From Methanomicrobia archaeon (GTDB lineage Archaea > Methanobacteriota_B > Thermococci > Methanofastidiosales > NM3): a DNA stretch of 21,231 bases. The stretch spans positions 1-21,231 of the forward strand of contig JAUVXU010000022.1 of NCBI GenBank assembly GCA_030603445.1, in the 5' to 3' direction. Made by a program: the position numbers and the translations under genes. The notes beneath the pieces are model-generated. The model saw only the letters and a program-made list of their open reading frames with translations. It was not told the origin of the DNA and searched no databases. Positions 13,358 to 21,231 of the stretch are shown here, piece by piece (the first letter of the stretch is position 1; every line of letters starts with the position of its first letter).

Positions 13358-14122
13358 ATGAAGGTTGAGTATATATCTTCAGACGATGAAAATGTTATAT
13401 CATTGATTGTAGAGGACGTTACGGCACCATTTGTTAATGCAATTCGGCGCATAATCATTACGGAAGTACCCGTATACGCTTGTAAAGAGCTTGTGGTATA
13501 TGAAAATACAAGCCCATTGTTCGATGAATCTATCGCACATAGGGTGGGACTTATTCCTTTAAAGACGCCGTTGGATTCAGATGAGAGTAGCAGGATGGTT
13601 ACCATAAGCCTTGAAGCTACGGGACCTACAACAGTTTATTCGGCCGATATGGTATCAGATGATGAGGAAGTTTCCCCTATCGATGGCGGATTTCCTATTA
13701 TAAAGCTTGGGCCGGGGCAGAAGCTTTCCTTTAATGCAGAATGTTGTGTGGGTTTTGGAAAAGACCATGCACGATGGCAGTCGGGGTTGGCATCTTACAA
13801 GAATTATCCTATAATAAAGATAGATTCAAAACGATGTAACCTATGCGGCAGGTGTAGCACTGCATGTCCTCAAAATATTCTGCAAATGACAGATGATGCC
13901 ATCAACGTTGTAGATGTGATGATGTGTACTTTTTGTAAATCATGTATGGAGGCATGCACATCTTCTAATGAGGAAACGCTTATAAAAGTCATTCCTCAGG
14001 ATGATAAGTTTATCTTTAAGGTAGAATCTTTTGGCAATATGACTGCAAAAGATTTATTAACAACTGCTTTAAAGATGATTGAAAATAAGGCAAATTCGCT
14101 TAATCAACAGATATTAGGCTAA
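13358..14122 (+). CDS. rpo3: DNA-directed RNA polymerase subunit Rpo3 (RpoD) with ferredoxin domain
   Basis: Rpo3 is the archaeal counterpart of one bacterial alpha subunit and eukaryotic Rpb3; it pairs with Rpo11 to start polymerase assembly. The 254-residue protein has the alpha dimerisation motif (VTAPFVNAIRRIIITEVPVY, residues 21-40) and HRVGLIPLKTPL. An inserted ferredoxin-like domain carries two complete motifs, with cysteines at 160, 163, 166, 170 and 190, 193, 196, 200, fitting two [4Fe-4S] clusters as in some methanogens. The C-terminal helix (about 227-247) is the second part of the dimerisation domain. It begins three bases after uS11 and ends directly beside tRNA-Leu. Confidence 0.96.
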   Translation: MKVEYISSDDENVISLIVEDVTAPFVNAIRRIIITEVPVYACKELVVYENTSPLFDESIAHRVGLIPLKTPLDSDESSRMVTISLEATGPTTVYSADMVSDDEEVSPIDGGFPIIKLGPGQKLSFNAECCVGFGKDHARWQSGLASYKNYPIIKIDSKRCNLCGRCSTACPQNILQMTDDAINVVDVMMCTFCKSCMEACTSSNEETLIKVIPQDDKFIFKVESFGNMTAKDLLTTALKMIENKANSLNQQILG

Positions 14123-15466: not shown

Positions 15467-15658
15467 ATGATTATCCCGATACGCTGTTTCACGTGCGGAA
15501 AGCCGATAGGCAACTTGTATAATGAATACAAGGAACGCATCGTGACTGAGGATCCCAAAAAAGTGCTAGACGACCTTGGTTTGGAGCGCTACTGCTGCAG
15601 GAGGATGTTTTTATCGCACGTTGATCTAATAGATGAAGTGCTAGAATTCAGTATTTAG
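15467..15658 (+). CDS. rpo10: DNA-directed RNA polymerase subunit Rpo10 (RpoN)
   Basis: Rpo10 is the archaeal Rpb10, a small zinc-bundle subunit that stabilises the Rpo3-Rpo11 platform. The 63-residue sequence starts [20 protein letters not shown] and has cysteines at 7, 10, 43 and 44 (CxxC and the CC pair in [17 protein letters not shown]), the family's zinc site. It starts five bases after uS9. In many archaea rpo6 (rpoK) follows; here the next features are tRNA-Pro and the enolase-like gene, and I find no rpo6 in the window. Confidence 0.97.
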
Positions 15659-15665
15659 TCTGTGT

Positions 15666-15743
15666 GGGACCGTAGGGTAGCTTGGACCATCCTCTCACCT
15701 TGGGGTGGTGGACACTCGAGTTCAAATCTCGGCGGTCCCACCA
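15666..15743 (+). tRNA. tRNA-Pro (anticodon probably GGG), CCA encoded
   Basis: Acceptor GGGACCG (15666-15672) pairs perfectly with CGGTCCC (15733-15739), discriminator A at 15740, and CCA is present in the DNA at 15741-15743. T8-A9 precede D stem GGGT/ATCC. T arm TCGAG-TTCAAAT-CTCGG. The best anticodon stem is TCACC/GGTGG (15695-15699, 15707-15711) with loop TTGGGGT, anticodon GGG, leaving two bases instead of one before the stem. The alternative register reads UGG but pairs badly. Both mean Pro. It lies eight bases after rpo10. Confidence 0.9.
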
Positions 15744-15814: not shown

Positions 15815-16393
15815 GTGAGTATAATTGAGGACTTTGCATTGAGGAACTTGTATGTTGAGTCGAAGAATCTCTTTGAGATCGACTTGTTTACAGGCAGTTC
15901 GTTTGGACGTGCACAGGTAAAGTGCGACGTAGATATAGAAGATCTCTATGCGGTCGTTGTACCCGAGCTTATTGGCCTAAATGTGATGGAGCAACGCTTG
16001 CTTGATGAGATATTACTGGATGTTGTGGAGGATTCAAAAATCCGATTTGCATTCTCACTTGCTTGCGCTAAATCTGCTGCGTCATATCTGGGTCTTCCTC
16101 TTTACCAGTACCTTGGAGGGATATTCACGATGAATGTGCCTGTAATCGTATTTGGTGACGCTATTGTAGACTCAACATTTAATAAGTTGTCCAAATCACA
16201 TAAAATTATCTATCAGGACCTGGATACGCTTACTGAATTATCTAAGCAGGAAAAGTCTTCATGTATCCAATACGCCGAGGATGGCAGTTGGCATGTTGCG
16301 TGCGGGATGGGATTTGATTATATAGAGATATATAAAAGGGAAGATATTAATGAATTATTACGAATTAAAGAACATATGTTGGAGGTATTATAA
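15815..16393 (+). CDS. Enolase-like protein, internally deleted and lacking catalytic residues
   Basis: The 192-residue product looks like enolase with most of its catalytic barrel removed. Residues 8-36 follow the enolase N-terminus ([13 protein letters not shown] against the usual VDVYT..GxFGRAAV). Residues 48-102 match closely ([38 protein letters not shown], then GG). Residues 164-190 resemble the enolase C-terminus ([15 protein letters not shown] against SERxAKYNQLLRIEEEL). The substrate loop (SGASTG), and the barrel that holds the Mg2+ ligands and catalytic Lys/Glu, are missing; full enolase is about 420 residues. It sits exactly where many archaea keep eno, before uS2. It starts with GTG at 15815 after GGATGT and overlaps uS2 by one base. 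It is unlikely to be a working enolase; a structural or regulatory role is unknown. Confidence 0.75.
16381..16386 (+). promoter_or_regulatory. Strong Shine-Dalgarno site for uS2
   Basis: GGAGGT lies inside the last codons of the enolase-like gene, six bases before the uS2 ATG. It matches the core of the archaeal anti-Shine-Dalgarno sequence better than most sites in this window. It fixes the uS2 start at 16393 and shows that the two genes share one transcript. Confidence 0.85.
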
Positions 16394-16989
16394 TGTCTGA
16401 TGAGATGTTGATTCCGCTTGATCAATACTTGGCTTCTGGTATTCATATAGGTACACAACAAAAGACCAAGGACATGGAACGATATATCTATAGGGTCCGT
16501 CAGGATGGGCTTTACGTGCTTGATATAAAGACTACTGACTTACGTATTAGGTCTATTGGAAAAGTATTGGCAAAATACGATCCACAAAAAATATTGGTCG
16601 TATCTACACGCGTTTATGGTCATCGACCTGTTAGAATGTTTTCAAAGCACACAAAATGTAAGGCAGTTGCAGGAAGATTTATTCCAGGAATGCTTACTAA
16701 CCCTAACAATAGTGATTTTATGGAACCAGATTTGTTGATAGTAACAGATCCACGTGCAGATTATCAAGCCTTAAAAGAGGGTTCAAGTATTGGCGTCCCT
16801 ATAATTGCACTATGTGATTCAGAAAATATGTTATCAAACGTGGATATGGTCGTTCCAACGAACAACAAGGGTAGGAAGGCTCTTTCGCTTATATACTACT
16901 TGCTTGCACGTGAGATGTTGCGCAGCAATGGCACATTGCCAGAAGACGGCGACATAGATTTTGAGTTAGAGGACTTTAAACAACTTTAA
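16393..16989 (+). CDS. rps2: 30S ribosomal protein uS2
   Basis: uS2 sits between the head and body of the small subunit and joins late in assembly. The 198-residue archaeal-type protein has [20 protein letters not shown] (residues 13-32), [20 protein letters not shown] (34-53), the [13 protein letters not shown] segment and [20 protein letters not shown], all typical. Its ATG overlaps the TAA stop of the enolase-like gene (TAATG). The acidic C-terminus ([12 protein letters not shown]) is short. A hairpin and T-tract follow the stop, so this is probably the end of the operon. Confidence 0.97.
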
Positions 16990-16994
16990 GTGGT

Positions 16995-17029
16995 AGTGCA
17001 ATCCATAAATGCACTATTCTTATCTTTTT
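16995..17029 (+). terminator. Hairpin with T-rich tract after uS2
   Basis: AGTGCA (16995-17000) and TGCACT (17010-17015) form a perfect 6-bp stem with a 9-base loop, followed by a T-rich run ending in TTTTT at 17025-17029. Archaeal termination mainly needs the T-tract; the stem may be incidental or protect the 3' end. The position directly after uS2 fits the end of the ribosomal operon. Confidence 0.5.
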
Positions 17030-17041
17030 GTATCGTGATAC
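17030..17041 (+). promoter_or_regulatory. 12-bp palindrome covering the ferredoxin ribosome-binding site
   Basis: GTATCGTGATAC is a 5-bp inverted repeat with a 2-base centre, ending one base before the ATG. It contains the GTGAT ribosome-binding site. It could act as a protein operator or a small hairpin that hides the site. No experimental support; it could also be chance. Confidence 0.35.
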
Positions 17042-17042
17042 C

Positions 17043-17240
17043 ATGACAGTAGCTGTAGATGATGCTAAGTGCTGTTTTCTTATAACGAAGAGCATTGATT
17101 GCTGCAAAATTATTTGCAGCGAGGTATGCCCTGCAAATGCTATTTGTTGTGATATTGATGTTAACATAAAGTGTGAAAAGTGCGTTTGGTGCGGAAATTG
17201 CATTGCTGCATGCCCTTCTCAAGCGCTATACTTATTATAG
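17043..17240 (+). CDS. Small cysteine-rich ferredoxin-like protein
   Basis: This 65-residue protein has 13 cysteines. The second half has a regular [4Fe-4S] motif: C47, C50, C53, C57 followed by Pro (CVWCGNCIAACP), with an extra Cys at 44. The first half has C25 and C29-Pro (IICSEVCPANAI) as in the other lobe of bacterial-type 2[4Fe-4S] ferredoxins, but the expected CxxC before it is replaced by adjacent CC pairs at 10-11 and 20-21, and another CC lies at 35-36. Whether it holds one or two clusters cannot be told. I chose ATG 17043, three bases after a GTGAT ribosome-binding site; a TTG five codons upstream is possible but unlikely. Its redox partner is unknown. Confidence 0.75.
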   Translation: MTVAVDDAKCCFLITKSIDCCKIICSEVCPANAICCDIDVNIKCEKCVWCGNCIAACPSQALYLL

Positions 17241-17282: not shown

Positions 17283-17428
17283 GCGGGGGTTGCCGAGATT
17301 GGTCAAAGGCGCTGGACTTAAGATCTAGTTCCACATACGGTAAGGTGGATATGTATAAGGGAATGTGCCTTTCTGGATAAGAAATCCAGTTTCGCAGGAA
17401 TCCGCGGGTTCAAATCCCGCCCCCCGCA
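17283..17428 (+). tRNA. tRNA-Leu (anticodon UAA) containing an intron
   Basis: Acceptor GCGGGGG (17283-17289) pairs with CCCCCGC (17421-17427), discriminator A at 17428, no encoded CCA. The D arm uses GCC/GGC. The anticodon stem CTGGA (17312-17316) pairs with TCCAG (17385-17389) once a 61-base intron is removed. The mature loop CTTAAGA gives anticodon TAA. The variable arm has a TTC/GAA stem and the T arm is GCGGG-TTCAAAT-CCCGC. The mature length is 85, equal to the other tRNA-Leu here. This agrees fully with a Leu tRNA spliced at position 37/38. Confidence 0.95.
17323..17383 (+). other. tRNA intron, 61 bases, at position 37/38 with bulge-helix-bulge
   Basis: The splice motif can be drawn in full. 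The central 4-bp helix is CTTA (17317-17320) with TAAG (17378-17381). The bulges are AGA (17321-17323) and AAA (17382-17384). The flanking helices are CTGGA/TCCAG in the exons and TCTAG (17324-17328)/CTGGA (17373-17377) in the intron. Cutting each bulge between its second and third base, as archaeal tRNA endonuclease does, gives this interval. I see no open reading frame or guide RNA signature inside. Confidence 0.9.
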
Positions 17429-17907: not shown

Positions 17908-18480
17908 TTATTTTACCAATGGTTTTCCTATTGGCATTATTTCTCTACCGAATGTCGGGTTTATGATGCTTGCTGCAGAGAGATACAAAGCGCTAAAACC
18001 GCATATTATCCCTTCATATCCTGCTAAAGTGTGTACAGATGAATAGTATTGGCCTATTGCTAGGAGGAAGAAGAGTATGGTCAATGTAGCAAAAACAACT
18101 GTCAGGGCTTTTGGTGATTTAAAGGTGGGTATCGTCATGTACAAGGTAAATAGCCCCCATCCACACAAGAATAGCGCCAAACCCGCTTTTGGGATTGGTG
18201 CGATAACATCTAGTGATTGCAAGATTATCATTGCAACGAGCGCTAACCAAAAGCTTCCAAAAGCGGTAAAGGCCGTTGCCCCAAATGTGTTTCCCAATTT
18301 AACTTCCCAACTACCAGCATATATTTGGCATAATCCTCCAAAGAAAAAACCAAGAGGAAGTATCATTCCAAGATTTTCGCTGGAAATTAGTTGAGCGTTA
18401 ATAATGTTCAATAATACCGTTGTTAGTCCAAAGGCTGCAAGCCCGAGGACTGCCGGATTTACTTTAGGATTTTGATCCAT
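17908..18480 (-). CDS. Acetate/succinate transporter, SatP/GPR1/YaaH family
   Basis: The 190-residue membrane protein has six hydrophobic segments. It shows the family signature NPAVLGL (residues 8-14, usually NPAPLGL) and the strongly conserved FFGGLCQIYAGSWEVKLGNT stretch continued by FGATAFTAFGSFWLAL. Members carry acetate, succinate or related acids with protons across the cytoplasmic membrane; in methanogens acetate uptake for carbon is the likeliest role, but substrate cannot be read from the sequence. The ATG at 18480 lies about 27 bases from the centre of a TATA box, so the mRNA is probably leaderless. It is a single gene on the minus strand, outside the ribosomal operons. The N-terminal Pro to Val change is unusual but within a variable position. 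Confidence 0.9.
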   Translation of the reverse strand: MDQNPKVNPAVLGLAAFGLTTVLLNIINAQLISSENLGMILPLGFFFGGLCQIYAGSWEVKLGNTFGATAFTAFGSFWLALVAMIILQSLDVIAPIPKAGLALFLCGWGLFTLYMTIPTFKSPKALTVVFATLTILFFLLAIGQYYSSVHTLAGYEGIICGFSALYLSAASIINPTFGREIMPIGKPLVK

Positions 18481-18530: not shown

Positions 18531-19019
18531 TTATTCCTTAACAAATAATTTTGTTAGCATATCACTGTTTTCTAGGTAATCAAATGGCACGATATCAGTC
18601 CATCCTGCTCTTTGAAACATATTCATAAAGCATACTCCTACGACTTTAGTTGTTTCATTGGACAACGTTTCTATCATGGACTGAGCATCTGATGCTTTAC
18701 ATTTTCCCGGCATAGCTAGTCCCCCCATTAGTACTATCACGTCTATCTTCTTTTCTCTTAATTCCGCGCACTCGCCCAACTCCATGGTGTACTCACCCAG
18801 GTGTATAGAACGCGCTTTACTAATGTCGGTATAAGGAATGTAAAATAAATTGCATGGCTGCTTTCTAATCACATAAACTAGAAATTCAATTATTGGGGTA
18901 CAGCTGTATGGCAGCCCACAAAACACAATAGTAGTCTTATGTTCTATAGACTCCATTATTTTTTTAAAGGACGCCGATAATCCCTTAATGCCTCTTGTAT
19001 CACTTTCTATCTGTTTCAT
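18531..19019 (-). CDS. DUF2124 family protein
   Basis: This is a 162-residue protein of a family known mainly from methanogens, with no established function. Family features seen: FCGLPYSCTPIIEFLVYVIR in the first half, YIPYTDISKARSI, VIVLMGGLAMP and VVGVCFMNMFQRAGW in the second half, which suggest an alpha/beta fold with a Rossmann-like strand order. I start it at ATG 19019, three bases after AGTGAT and about 32 bases from a TATA box centre. A GTG nine codons upstream (19046) is in frame but touches the promoter. Cysteines in the CGLP, PYSC and GVCF segments could matter. No enzyme motif is recognised. Confidence 0.82.
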   Translation of the reverse strand: MKQIESDTRGIKGLSASFKKIMESIEHKTTIVFCGLPYSCTPIIEFLVYVIRKQPCNLFYIPYTDISKARSIHLGEYTMELGECAELREKKIDVIVLMGGLAMPGKCKASDAQSMIETLSNETTKVVGVCFMNMFQRAGWTDIVPFDYLENSDMLTKLFVKE

Positions 19020-19047
19020 TGCATCACTGTCTTTTTTAAAAGACACA

Positions 19048-19180: not shown

Positions 19181-20137
19181 ATGGGCACATTAAAACATGT
19201 TACAATTGGAGTATTTGGGGAATTACAGAACAATTTTTTGAAAAAACTTGGAAACAAAGGCACTGTTAATGATATTGAGTTTAGGAATAATAGTGGAAAA
19301 GATTATGTATGTACACTATGTTCTCCTAAGTCAGATAAAGTTGCCCCATTGCTACAAGCCGTAAACTTAGTAGATATTCCTATTATGGTGTTTGATGCAC
19401 CATCCCCTGAATTAGGTGAGGCGATGCTTGCAGTGGATGCACGCAGATTCCCTCTTGGAATTTTATGCATTTCCGAAAAATTCGGTGAAGAGAGGGCGAG
19501 AAACCTTATTATGCATACATCTCTTGAGACTTTTGACATTTTGCCATTTGATCCAAGCTGTGTATTAGATCATATTTTATCTGATGAGTTCTACGAACGC
19601 ATTCCTAAACCAGATGGGGCAACAAAGGTGCCTATTGATAATTATTTTTCTGTTAAGAGCGTTGGAACAGTAGCTTTAGGCATTGTCAAACGAGGAAATA
19701 TTGGGGTATACACAAAATTGATGGTGTATCCAACGCAAAGAGAAGTGCTTGTAAAATCCATGCAATCACAAGATAAGGATATCAGAAAGGCAGTCACGCT
19801 ACAGCGTGTTGGATGCTCATTAAAGGGTGTTAAGCCCGATGATCTTAAAAGAGGGAACATAATTGCCCAAAAAGATAGCATTACAGTATCCAAAACTGTT
19901 ACTTTCCAGTTAATCCGCAATAGTATTATTAGTGATGAGATATCTGTTGGAGCTTCTTTTTTTGTCTGCATAGGCCTACAGACTCCTGTTGGGCGCGTGA
20001 AAGAATATAATGGAGATATTATTACATTTGAGCTGGAACGCGAGATTGCATTTGATGCGACAGATATGGCTATTGTGGCAAAAACAACCCTCAAACCCCC
20101 TCGCGTTATTGGTGGGGGAAAAATTAAAATAAATTGA
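19181..20137 (+). CDS. SelB-like elongation-factor homologue (aSelBL type) without GTPase motifs
   Basis: The 318-residue protein resembles translational GTPases of the SelB/EF1A group. The first 150 residues retain the outline of a G domain (IGVFGELQNNFLKKLGNKGT, where GxxxxGK[ST] would be), but the P-loop Lys/Ser, the DxxG motif and NKxD are absent. Residues from about 158 match EF-Tu domain II: VGTVALGIVKRGNIG, MVYPTQREVLVKSMQSQDKD, then VGCSLKGVKPDDLKRGNII. A third beta domain closes the protein. There is no C-terminal SECIS-binding domain. This agrees with the aSelBL family described in many methanogens, whose role (once proposed for pyrrolysyl-tRNA) is unsettled. It is a single gene with its own promoter, ending five bases from a convergent tRNA-Tyr. 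Confidence 0.85.
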   Translation: MGTLKHVTIGVFGELQNNFLKKLGNKGTVNDIEFRNNSGKDYVCTLCSPKSDKVAPLLQAVNLVDIPIMVFDAPSPELGEAMLAVDARRFPLGILCISEKFGEERARNLIMHTSLETFDILPFDPSCVLDHILSDEFYERIPKPDGATKVPIDNYFSVKSVGTVALGIVKRGNIGVYTKLMVYPTQREVLVKSMQSQDKDIRKAVTLQRVGCSLKGVKPDDLKRGNIIAQKDSITVSKTVTFQLIRNSIISDEISVGASFFVCIGLQTPVGRVKEYNGDIITFELEREIAFDATDMAIVAKTTLKPPRVIGGGKIKIN

Positions 20138-20380: not shown

Positions 20381-21231
20381 ATGTTAATCATGTACGTCAC
20401 GCGCACGCAGCAGGTGGCTCTAAAGGGCGATCACTTCTCATACTGGTGCCACAAGGCAAAGAATGTATACAACAATGCCAACTACATCATTCGCCAGGAG
20501 TACTTCAACAATGGGCGTTACATAGCGCGCAATGAGCTCTACCACATGATCAAGAATGACCAGGAATACAGGGAGCTTCCCTCCCTCGTTGCAAACGAGG
20601 TTTTAAGGACACTTCATGAGGCTTGGACGGGATTTTTCGGCTCCATGAGATCGTATGGTCGTGACCCGTTCCGTTTTCTTGGTAGGCCAAGGCCACCCCG
20701 CTACAAGGACAGGGACGGGGAGATAACGATAAGATTCCCCCGCAATCACATCTCGCATCGCAGGGGAAAGGTCCTTTTGCCAAAGAAGGTGGGGCGATAC
20801 CCAGTAAGGCACAAGCTTCCGGAGGGAGCAGACGTAAAGATGGTGCGAATAATTCCAAGAGGATCCTCATATGTAGCGGAGATCGTCTATGGGAAGGAAG
20901 TAAATGTAAACAACAGGACAGGCGGATGCGTGCTTGGTGTGGACATAGGACTTGAGAACCTCATGACCGTGGTGGATGATCAGGGCAGCAGGCCCTGGAT
21001 CGTCAGGGTGGAGCTCTTAAGTTGATGAATCAGTACTACAACAAGGAGCTTGCCCGCCTCAGGTCCGTATGCACAAGGTCGGGGCAAAGGACGACCAAGA
21101 GGATAAGGAAACTTTCCGAAAAAAGGAACAGAAAGGTAAGAAACGCCCTCCACCATATGAGCAAGCTGCTCGTCGGGCATGCCTGCAAGGTGGGGGCGTC
21201 TTCCATCGTCATCGGGTACAATGGGGGGTGG
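20381..21231 (+). pseudogene. tnpB: TnpB-type (IS200/IS605 OrfB) RNA-guided nuclease gene, frameshifted and cut by window end
   Basis: TnpB proteins are transposon-encoded RNA-guided nucleases related to Cas12. The first frame gives 214 residues, starting at ATG 20381 (or 20390, MYVTRTQQVALKGDHFSYWC), with an N-terminal helical region, an RPRPPRYKDRDGEI segment and the first RuvC motif VLGVDIGLENLMTVV (Asp 188). The frame then stops at 21023-21025. Adding one base in the GGG at 21006-21008 restores a reading frame open to the end (222 bases from 21010) with KLMNQYYNKELARLRSV, RIRKLSEKRNRKVRNALHHM and GASSIVIGYNGGW, as expected for TnpB. So this is a single-base deletion in one gene. The segment is clearly richer in G+C and uses different codons than its neighbours, pointing to transfer. 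No TnpA is present; the RuvC-II/III end and any reRNA lie outside the window. Confidence 0.88.

Follow-up and report, generated by a model that had tools for sequence, protein, structure and literature searches.

Enolase is a classic moonlighting protein, and in many archaea its gene adjoins ribosomal genes; to our knowledge, no job besides metabolism has been established for the archaeal protein. Archaea with two enolases were described by Makarova et al. 2015 (PMC4390880): one copy adjoins Rpo6 and S2, the other is scattered, and the copy remaining in situ was proposed to keep an ancestral ancillary, ribosome-linked function. In Thermococcales, a non-catalytic copy of 342 aa lies directly before rps2. 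Considering a lineage of the Methanosaeta phylum, we saw copies of 361-413 aa before rps2 in which most catalytic positions are gone (L254-L258), with a full enolase elsewhere in five of the six genomes; these non-catalytic enolases are probably a separate case of the fate described here.

The protein analysed below, enoL, is the shortest in-situ non-catalytic form found. A form of ~190 aa is not described in PMC4390880, and a search of the literature produced neither a paper naming enolase together with Methanofastidiosa nor a functional study of the Thermococcales 342-aa paralog.

The locus

The window (the whole stretch of 21,231 nucleotides that was analysed) carries a gene cluster in the order uL13-uS9-rpoN-tRNA-Pro-enoL-rps2. 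The features of the locus are as follows.

15467..15658 (+): rpoN (RNA polymerase subunit N)
15666..15743 (+): tRNA-Pro(GGG), between rpoN and enoL
15815..16393 (+): enoL, truncated enolase paralog, 192 aa; GTG start at 15815, TAA stop at 16391-16393; profile matches
15815..16120 (+): enoL residues 1-102, cap (N-terminal) domain of enolase, lacking both the Ser-loop and the loop that follows, YLGG motif at the end (profiles, alignment, model)
15842..15844 (+): codon of R10, aligned with Plasmodium enolase R11, the Arg in the Arg-Glu pair between enolase subunits
15875..15877 (+): codon of E21, aligned with human alpha-enolase E20, the dimer-forming partner of R414
16148..16225 (+): enoL residues 112-137, replacement stretch, the fastest-evolving part (alignment, dN/dS 0.194)
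16226..16330 (+): enoL residues 138-172, what is left of the last barrel units, including H160 (alignment; strand 169-172 in the model)
16337..16387 (+): enoL residues 175-191, C-terminal helix with N179, E180, R183 and E186 (alignment, model)
16361..16363 (+): codon of R183, which aligns to R414 of human alpha-enolase
16370..16372 (+): codon of E186, aligned with Plasmodium enolase E425, the Glu in the same intersubunit pair as R11
16391..16395 (+): TAATG, enoL stop and rps2 start, one-base overlap
16393..16989 (+): rps2 (uS2)

As originally predicted, the enoL frame is intact, being open from the GTG to the TAA, and its overlap with uS2 amounts to one base. The predicted ribosome-binding site of its own is weak in the source genome (AAAGGATGTGGCTTCGTG) and strong in a sister family (GGAGAGGAAAGATTG).

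Other features were observed elsewhere in the window.

13358-14122 (+): RNA polymerase subunit D carrying a pair of Cys clusters like those of ferredoxins (CNLCGRCSTACP and CTFCKSCMEAC)
17028-17240 (+): ferredoxin-like ORF of 70 aa directly after rps2, with a weak match to the LdpA Fe-S domain
17283-17428 (+): tRNA with an insertion (Rfam, 45.1 bits), missed by ARAGORN; on visual inspection, an intron-containing tRNA-Leu(TAA)
17908-18480 (-): membrane protein of the GPR1/FUN34/YaaH family (3.3e-38), a family that includes acetate transporters
18531-19046 (-): DUF2124 protein
19181-20137 (+): 318-aa protein with a segment like EF-Tu domain 2
20381-21025 (+): ORF without a Pfam match, resembling by eye a broken OrfB transposase of the IS605 type

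Enolase ancestry

Profiles, alignment, tree and synteny bear out the original prediction of an enolase reduced to its two ends in the ancestral location: enoL is enolase-derived. The profile matches, although present as anticipated, all score below the curated cut-offs. Pfam Enolase_N matches residues 42-100 (1.7e-6, 28.7 bits; curated cut-off 35); the NCBIfam model PRK08350, a 341-aa 'hypothetical protein', matches residues 17-185 (4.8e-12, 45.8 bits); and TIGR01060 (eno) matches residues 41-111 (4.5e-10, 38.7 bits; cut-off 300). A profile built from 18 orthologs retrieves PDB enolases (4a3r, 6e-20).

Along the alignment, enoL consists of a cap domain lacking the Ser-loop, the YLGG motif with the barrel start, the replacement stretch, and finally the last segment of the barrel plus the C-terminal helix. 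Between residues 109 and 137 of the window protein, 27 residues stand for about 198 of a full enolase. About 170 barrel residues are absent together with the Ser-loop, and a complete eight-stranded barrel is seen neither in the alignment nor in the secondary structure of the model. The C-terminal helix had been correctly recognized, and the match reaches further: the end of enolase (last barrel part and N-x-L-[L/I]-R-I helix) aligns with residues ~135-191.

With full enolases in the alignment, AlphaFold2 gives a confident model of enoL (pLDDT 91.9, pTM 0.88); all 192 residues of this model align with B. subtilis enolase 4a3r (Z 17.1, rmsd 2.3, chain residues 1-417). Prediction from three truncated sequences only, however, gave a low-confidence model (pLDDT 45.4). 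As the confident model needs full enolases in the alignment, it is not independent evidence.

In the tree, a clade with support 97 unites in-situ and degenerate enolases, and the truncated proteins nest among its archaeal in-situ members. Degenerate forms cluster inside this group (support 88) on long branches; the inner order of the clade is subject to long-branch attraction, and the cluster therefore does not settle their common origin.

The sampled archaeal enolases fall into two types: those in situ (beside rps2) have His160 and Glu180, the others have Asp with Gln or Arg, and none of the Asp-type copies in the sample adjoins rps2. By its H160/E180 pair the window protein belongs to the in-situ type. 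We rejected the idea that H160 and E180 are residues derived only in non-catalytic forms, since catalytic in-situ archaeal enolases carry both. Their presence in these enzymes, along with covariation with D/Q or D/R elsewhere, leads us to read the pair as a type marker; the two residues are probably in contact. In summary of its placement, enoL precedes rps2, groups with the in-situ enolases and coexists with a second catalytic enolase encoded elsewhere, as an in-situ paralog does.

Loss of catalytic residues

Twelve catalytic or metal-binding positions were scored: S39, H159, E168, E211, D246, E295, D320, K345, H373, R374, S375 and K396. The window protein keeps none of the 12, and any of 17 orthologs keeps at most two, the retained set never being constant; judged by these positions, enoL is non-catalytic. 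The full enolase that was expected elsewhere in the genome is there: a 442-aa frame on contig C45 with 12 of 12 catalytic positions. In five enoL-bearing MAGs of the order no full enolase was found by either family; this number is close to what incomplete assemblies could produce (roughly 2.4 expected, computed by hand from completeness values), and we draw no inference from this absence.

A same-genus genome was seen to carry a further enolase paralog (L273 in G001, contig C18), a 461-aa frame in which Ser39, His159 and His373 are replaced and the other checked catalytic positions are kept.

Some invariant residues are specific to the truncated form, e.g. R77, G157 and S29, and could be taken as signs of a new enzymatic or ligand-binding activity on the residual fold. 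However, no known active-site residues are left and those about 170 barrel residues are gone, which makes such an activity very improbable in our view.

Conservation and selection

An enoL of ~190 aa lies directly before rps2 in 18 of the 21 genomes of the order, representing three families, with no internal stops in any of the 18. Its median dN/dS is 0.080 (30 pairs) versus 0.023 for rps2. Regional medians are 0.067 for the cap (alignment columns 1-111), 0.194 for the replacement stretch and 0.082 for the C-terminal part. The proposed dN/dS check across relatives at the same locus thus agrees with conservation across the order, open frames and membership in the in-situ clade: enoL is kept under purifying selection and is not decaying. 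The genome carries mcrA, and its class includes the genomes with the 342-aa paralog, both consistent with Methanofastidiosales.

Assembly deletion was rejected as the source of the short gene, which is the same in 18 genomes of three families; pseudogene decay was rejected given the dN/dS values and open frames. A slowly decaying relic, open by chance, would account for a dN/dS about 3-4 times that of rps2 as well as for the loss of enoL from one family, yet three families have retained the gene, free of internal stops and at a dN/dS of about 0.08. This already contradicts the relic explanation, and we give it hardly any credence.

Among the three genomes without enoL, G011 is one in which rps2 was not found either, so its assembly probably lacks this locus. 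The other two make up family f3, where rpoN is followed by rps2 with no enolase ORF between. As a separate observation, both genomes of f3 carry a catalytic enolase elsewhere (L055 in G009 and L066 in G006), and it has the His/Glu pair that in other cases marks in-situ enolases.

In all 18 genomes the enoL/rps2 junction is either an overlap of 1-4 bases or a gap of about 2-3 bases. One could speculate, given this tight stop/start arrangement, that enoL is a translational leader, an ORF kept mainly so that finishing ribosomes start on rps2, with a protein of little role. However, the purifying selection on enoL (dN/dS 0.06-0.17) is uneven along the protein, as for a folded product; a coupling leader could be far shorter; and f3 has rps2 without the ORF. 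We regard the leader as quite unlikely. The original suggestion of a frame maintained for translational coupling to uS2 is thus weakly favoured by the junction, but for coupling an open frame would suffice and the protein would not have to be conserved. With f3 keeping rps2 without enoL, coupling alone explains the gene poorly.

Subunit interface

Residue pairs reported to join enolase subunits are E20/R414 in the human enzyme and R11/E425 in the Plasmodium enzyme; strands 1-3 and the last helix were reported as interface elements of S. aureus enolase. The enoL counterparts are E21/R183 and R10/E186, matched to yeast or human enolase numbering by counting alignment positions ourselves. Both pairs are invariant in 18 of 18 truncated proteins and 19 of 19 Thermococcales proteins checked. 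From the invariance of R10, E21, R183 and E186 we infer that enoL may be a dimer-competent pseudoenzyme. The same interface residues are, however, conserved in ordinary enolases too; thus, their conservation may reflect an inherited folding constraint and not be a proof of dimers. Taken together, strands 1-3 and the last helix have 11 invariant columns out of 51, no enrichment over the 28 of 141 elsewhere (counted by hand), and helix 5, a further interface element of S. aureus enolase, falls in the deleted part.

In the longer copies L254-L258 (from G118, G171, G128, G138 and G148) R10 and E186 tend to change together.

A partner of enoL could also be the full enolase of the same genome, with enoL as its regulatory or stabilising subunit in a heterodimer. 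The coexistence of the two proteins and the retention of both interface halves with their ion-pair residues would suit this arrangement; on the other hand, its D/R pair assigns the full enolase to the other type, the tree places it far from enoL, and in the five MAGs mentioned above enoL was found without a full enolase by either family, although this may be due to missing sequence. We see the heterodimer as unlikely, though less so than the leader or the new activity.

Origin and possible role

The explanation we prefer, and consider fairly probable as a whole, is that enoL is an in-situ descendant of enolase that lost catalysis, kept the interface and works as a dimeric binding or scaffold protein in a translation-linked ancillary role. 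The ancestor would be the archaeal enolase encoded upstream of rps2 in many archaea. A second catalytic enolase, at another chromosomal site, would have taken over glycolysis/gluconeogenesis; the in-situ copy would then have lost the active site and most of the barrel, with selection retaining the cap domain and the C-terminal helix, the parts from which the enolase subunit interface is built. The resulting protein would most likely dimerise in the manner of enolases, with itself or with the full enolase, and may bind other molecules or act as a scaffold, in the ancillary role proposed in PMC4390880, the link to translation being drawn from gene position only.

A new non-catalytic role was the other possibility raised by the original prediction. 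Its non-catalytic part stands; the role itself is probably not new, since non-catalytic in-situ enolases exist in other lineages (Thermococcales and that of the Methanosaeta phylum) and an ancillary function was already proposed for the in-situ copy.

More tentatively, and with somewhat less than even confidence, we suggest that the ~190-aa protein is the smallest natural unit carrying an old non-metabolic function of archaeal enolase, in translation or ribosome assembly, with the catalytic parts stripped away. A stripped-down enolase maintained by selection would single out the cap domain together with the last helix as the important part. Thus, enoL may show which part of enolase carries its second, non-metabolic job, and it makes this job testable with a small protein.

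Comparison with known systems

The closest described systems are the in-situ paralogs of arCOG01170 (branches 3 and 4 in PMC4390880). Like enoL, they lie beside rps2, evolve fast and coexist with another enolase encoded at a different site; for them, too, it was proposed that the glycolytic role was lost and an ancillary one retained. Members with sequences available here (Thermococcales, 342 aa) differ from enoL in keeping much more of the barrel.

PRK08350 / NF006223, the Thermococcales 341-aa protein, is the best model match and shares with enoL the place before rps2, the RERE ion-pair residues, the H/E pair and the non-catalytic state. It is, however, ~150 residues longer, and the enoL score of 45.8 bits lies far below the equivalog cut-off of 624 bits. 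With phosphopyruvate hydratase (TIGR01060) enoL has in common the cap domain, the C-terminal helix and the fold of the retained part, but lacks its catalytic residues and most of its barrel.

The copies L254-L258 resemble enoL in being located upstream of rps2 on the same strand, in having lost most catalytic positions and, in most cases, in the presence of a full enolase elsewhere; unlike enoL, they are 361-413 aa long, with R10 changed to Ser or Thr and E186 mostly to Gln.
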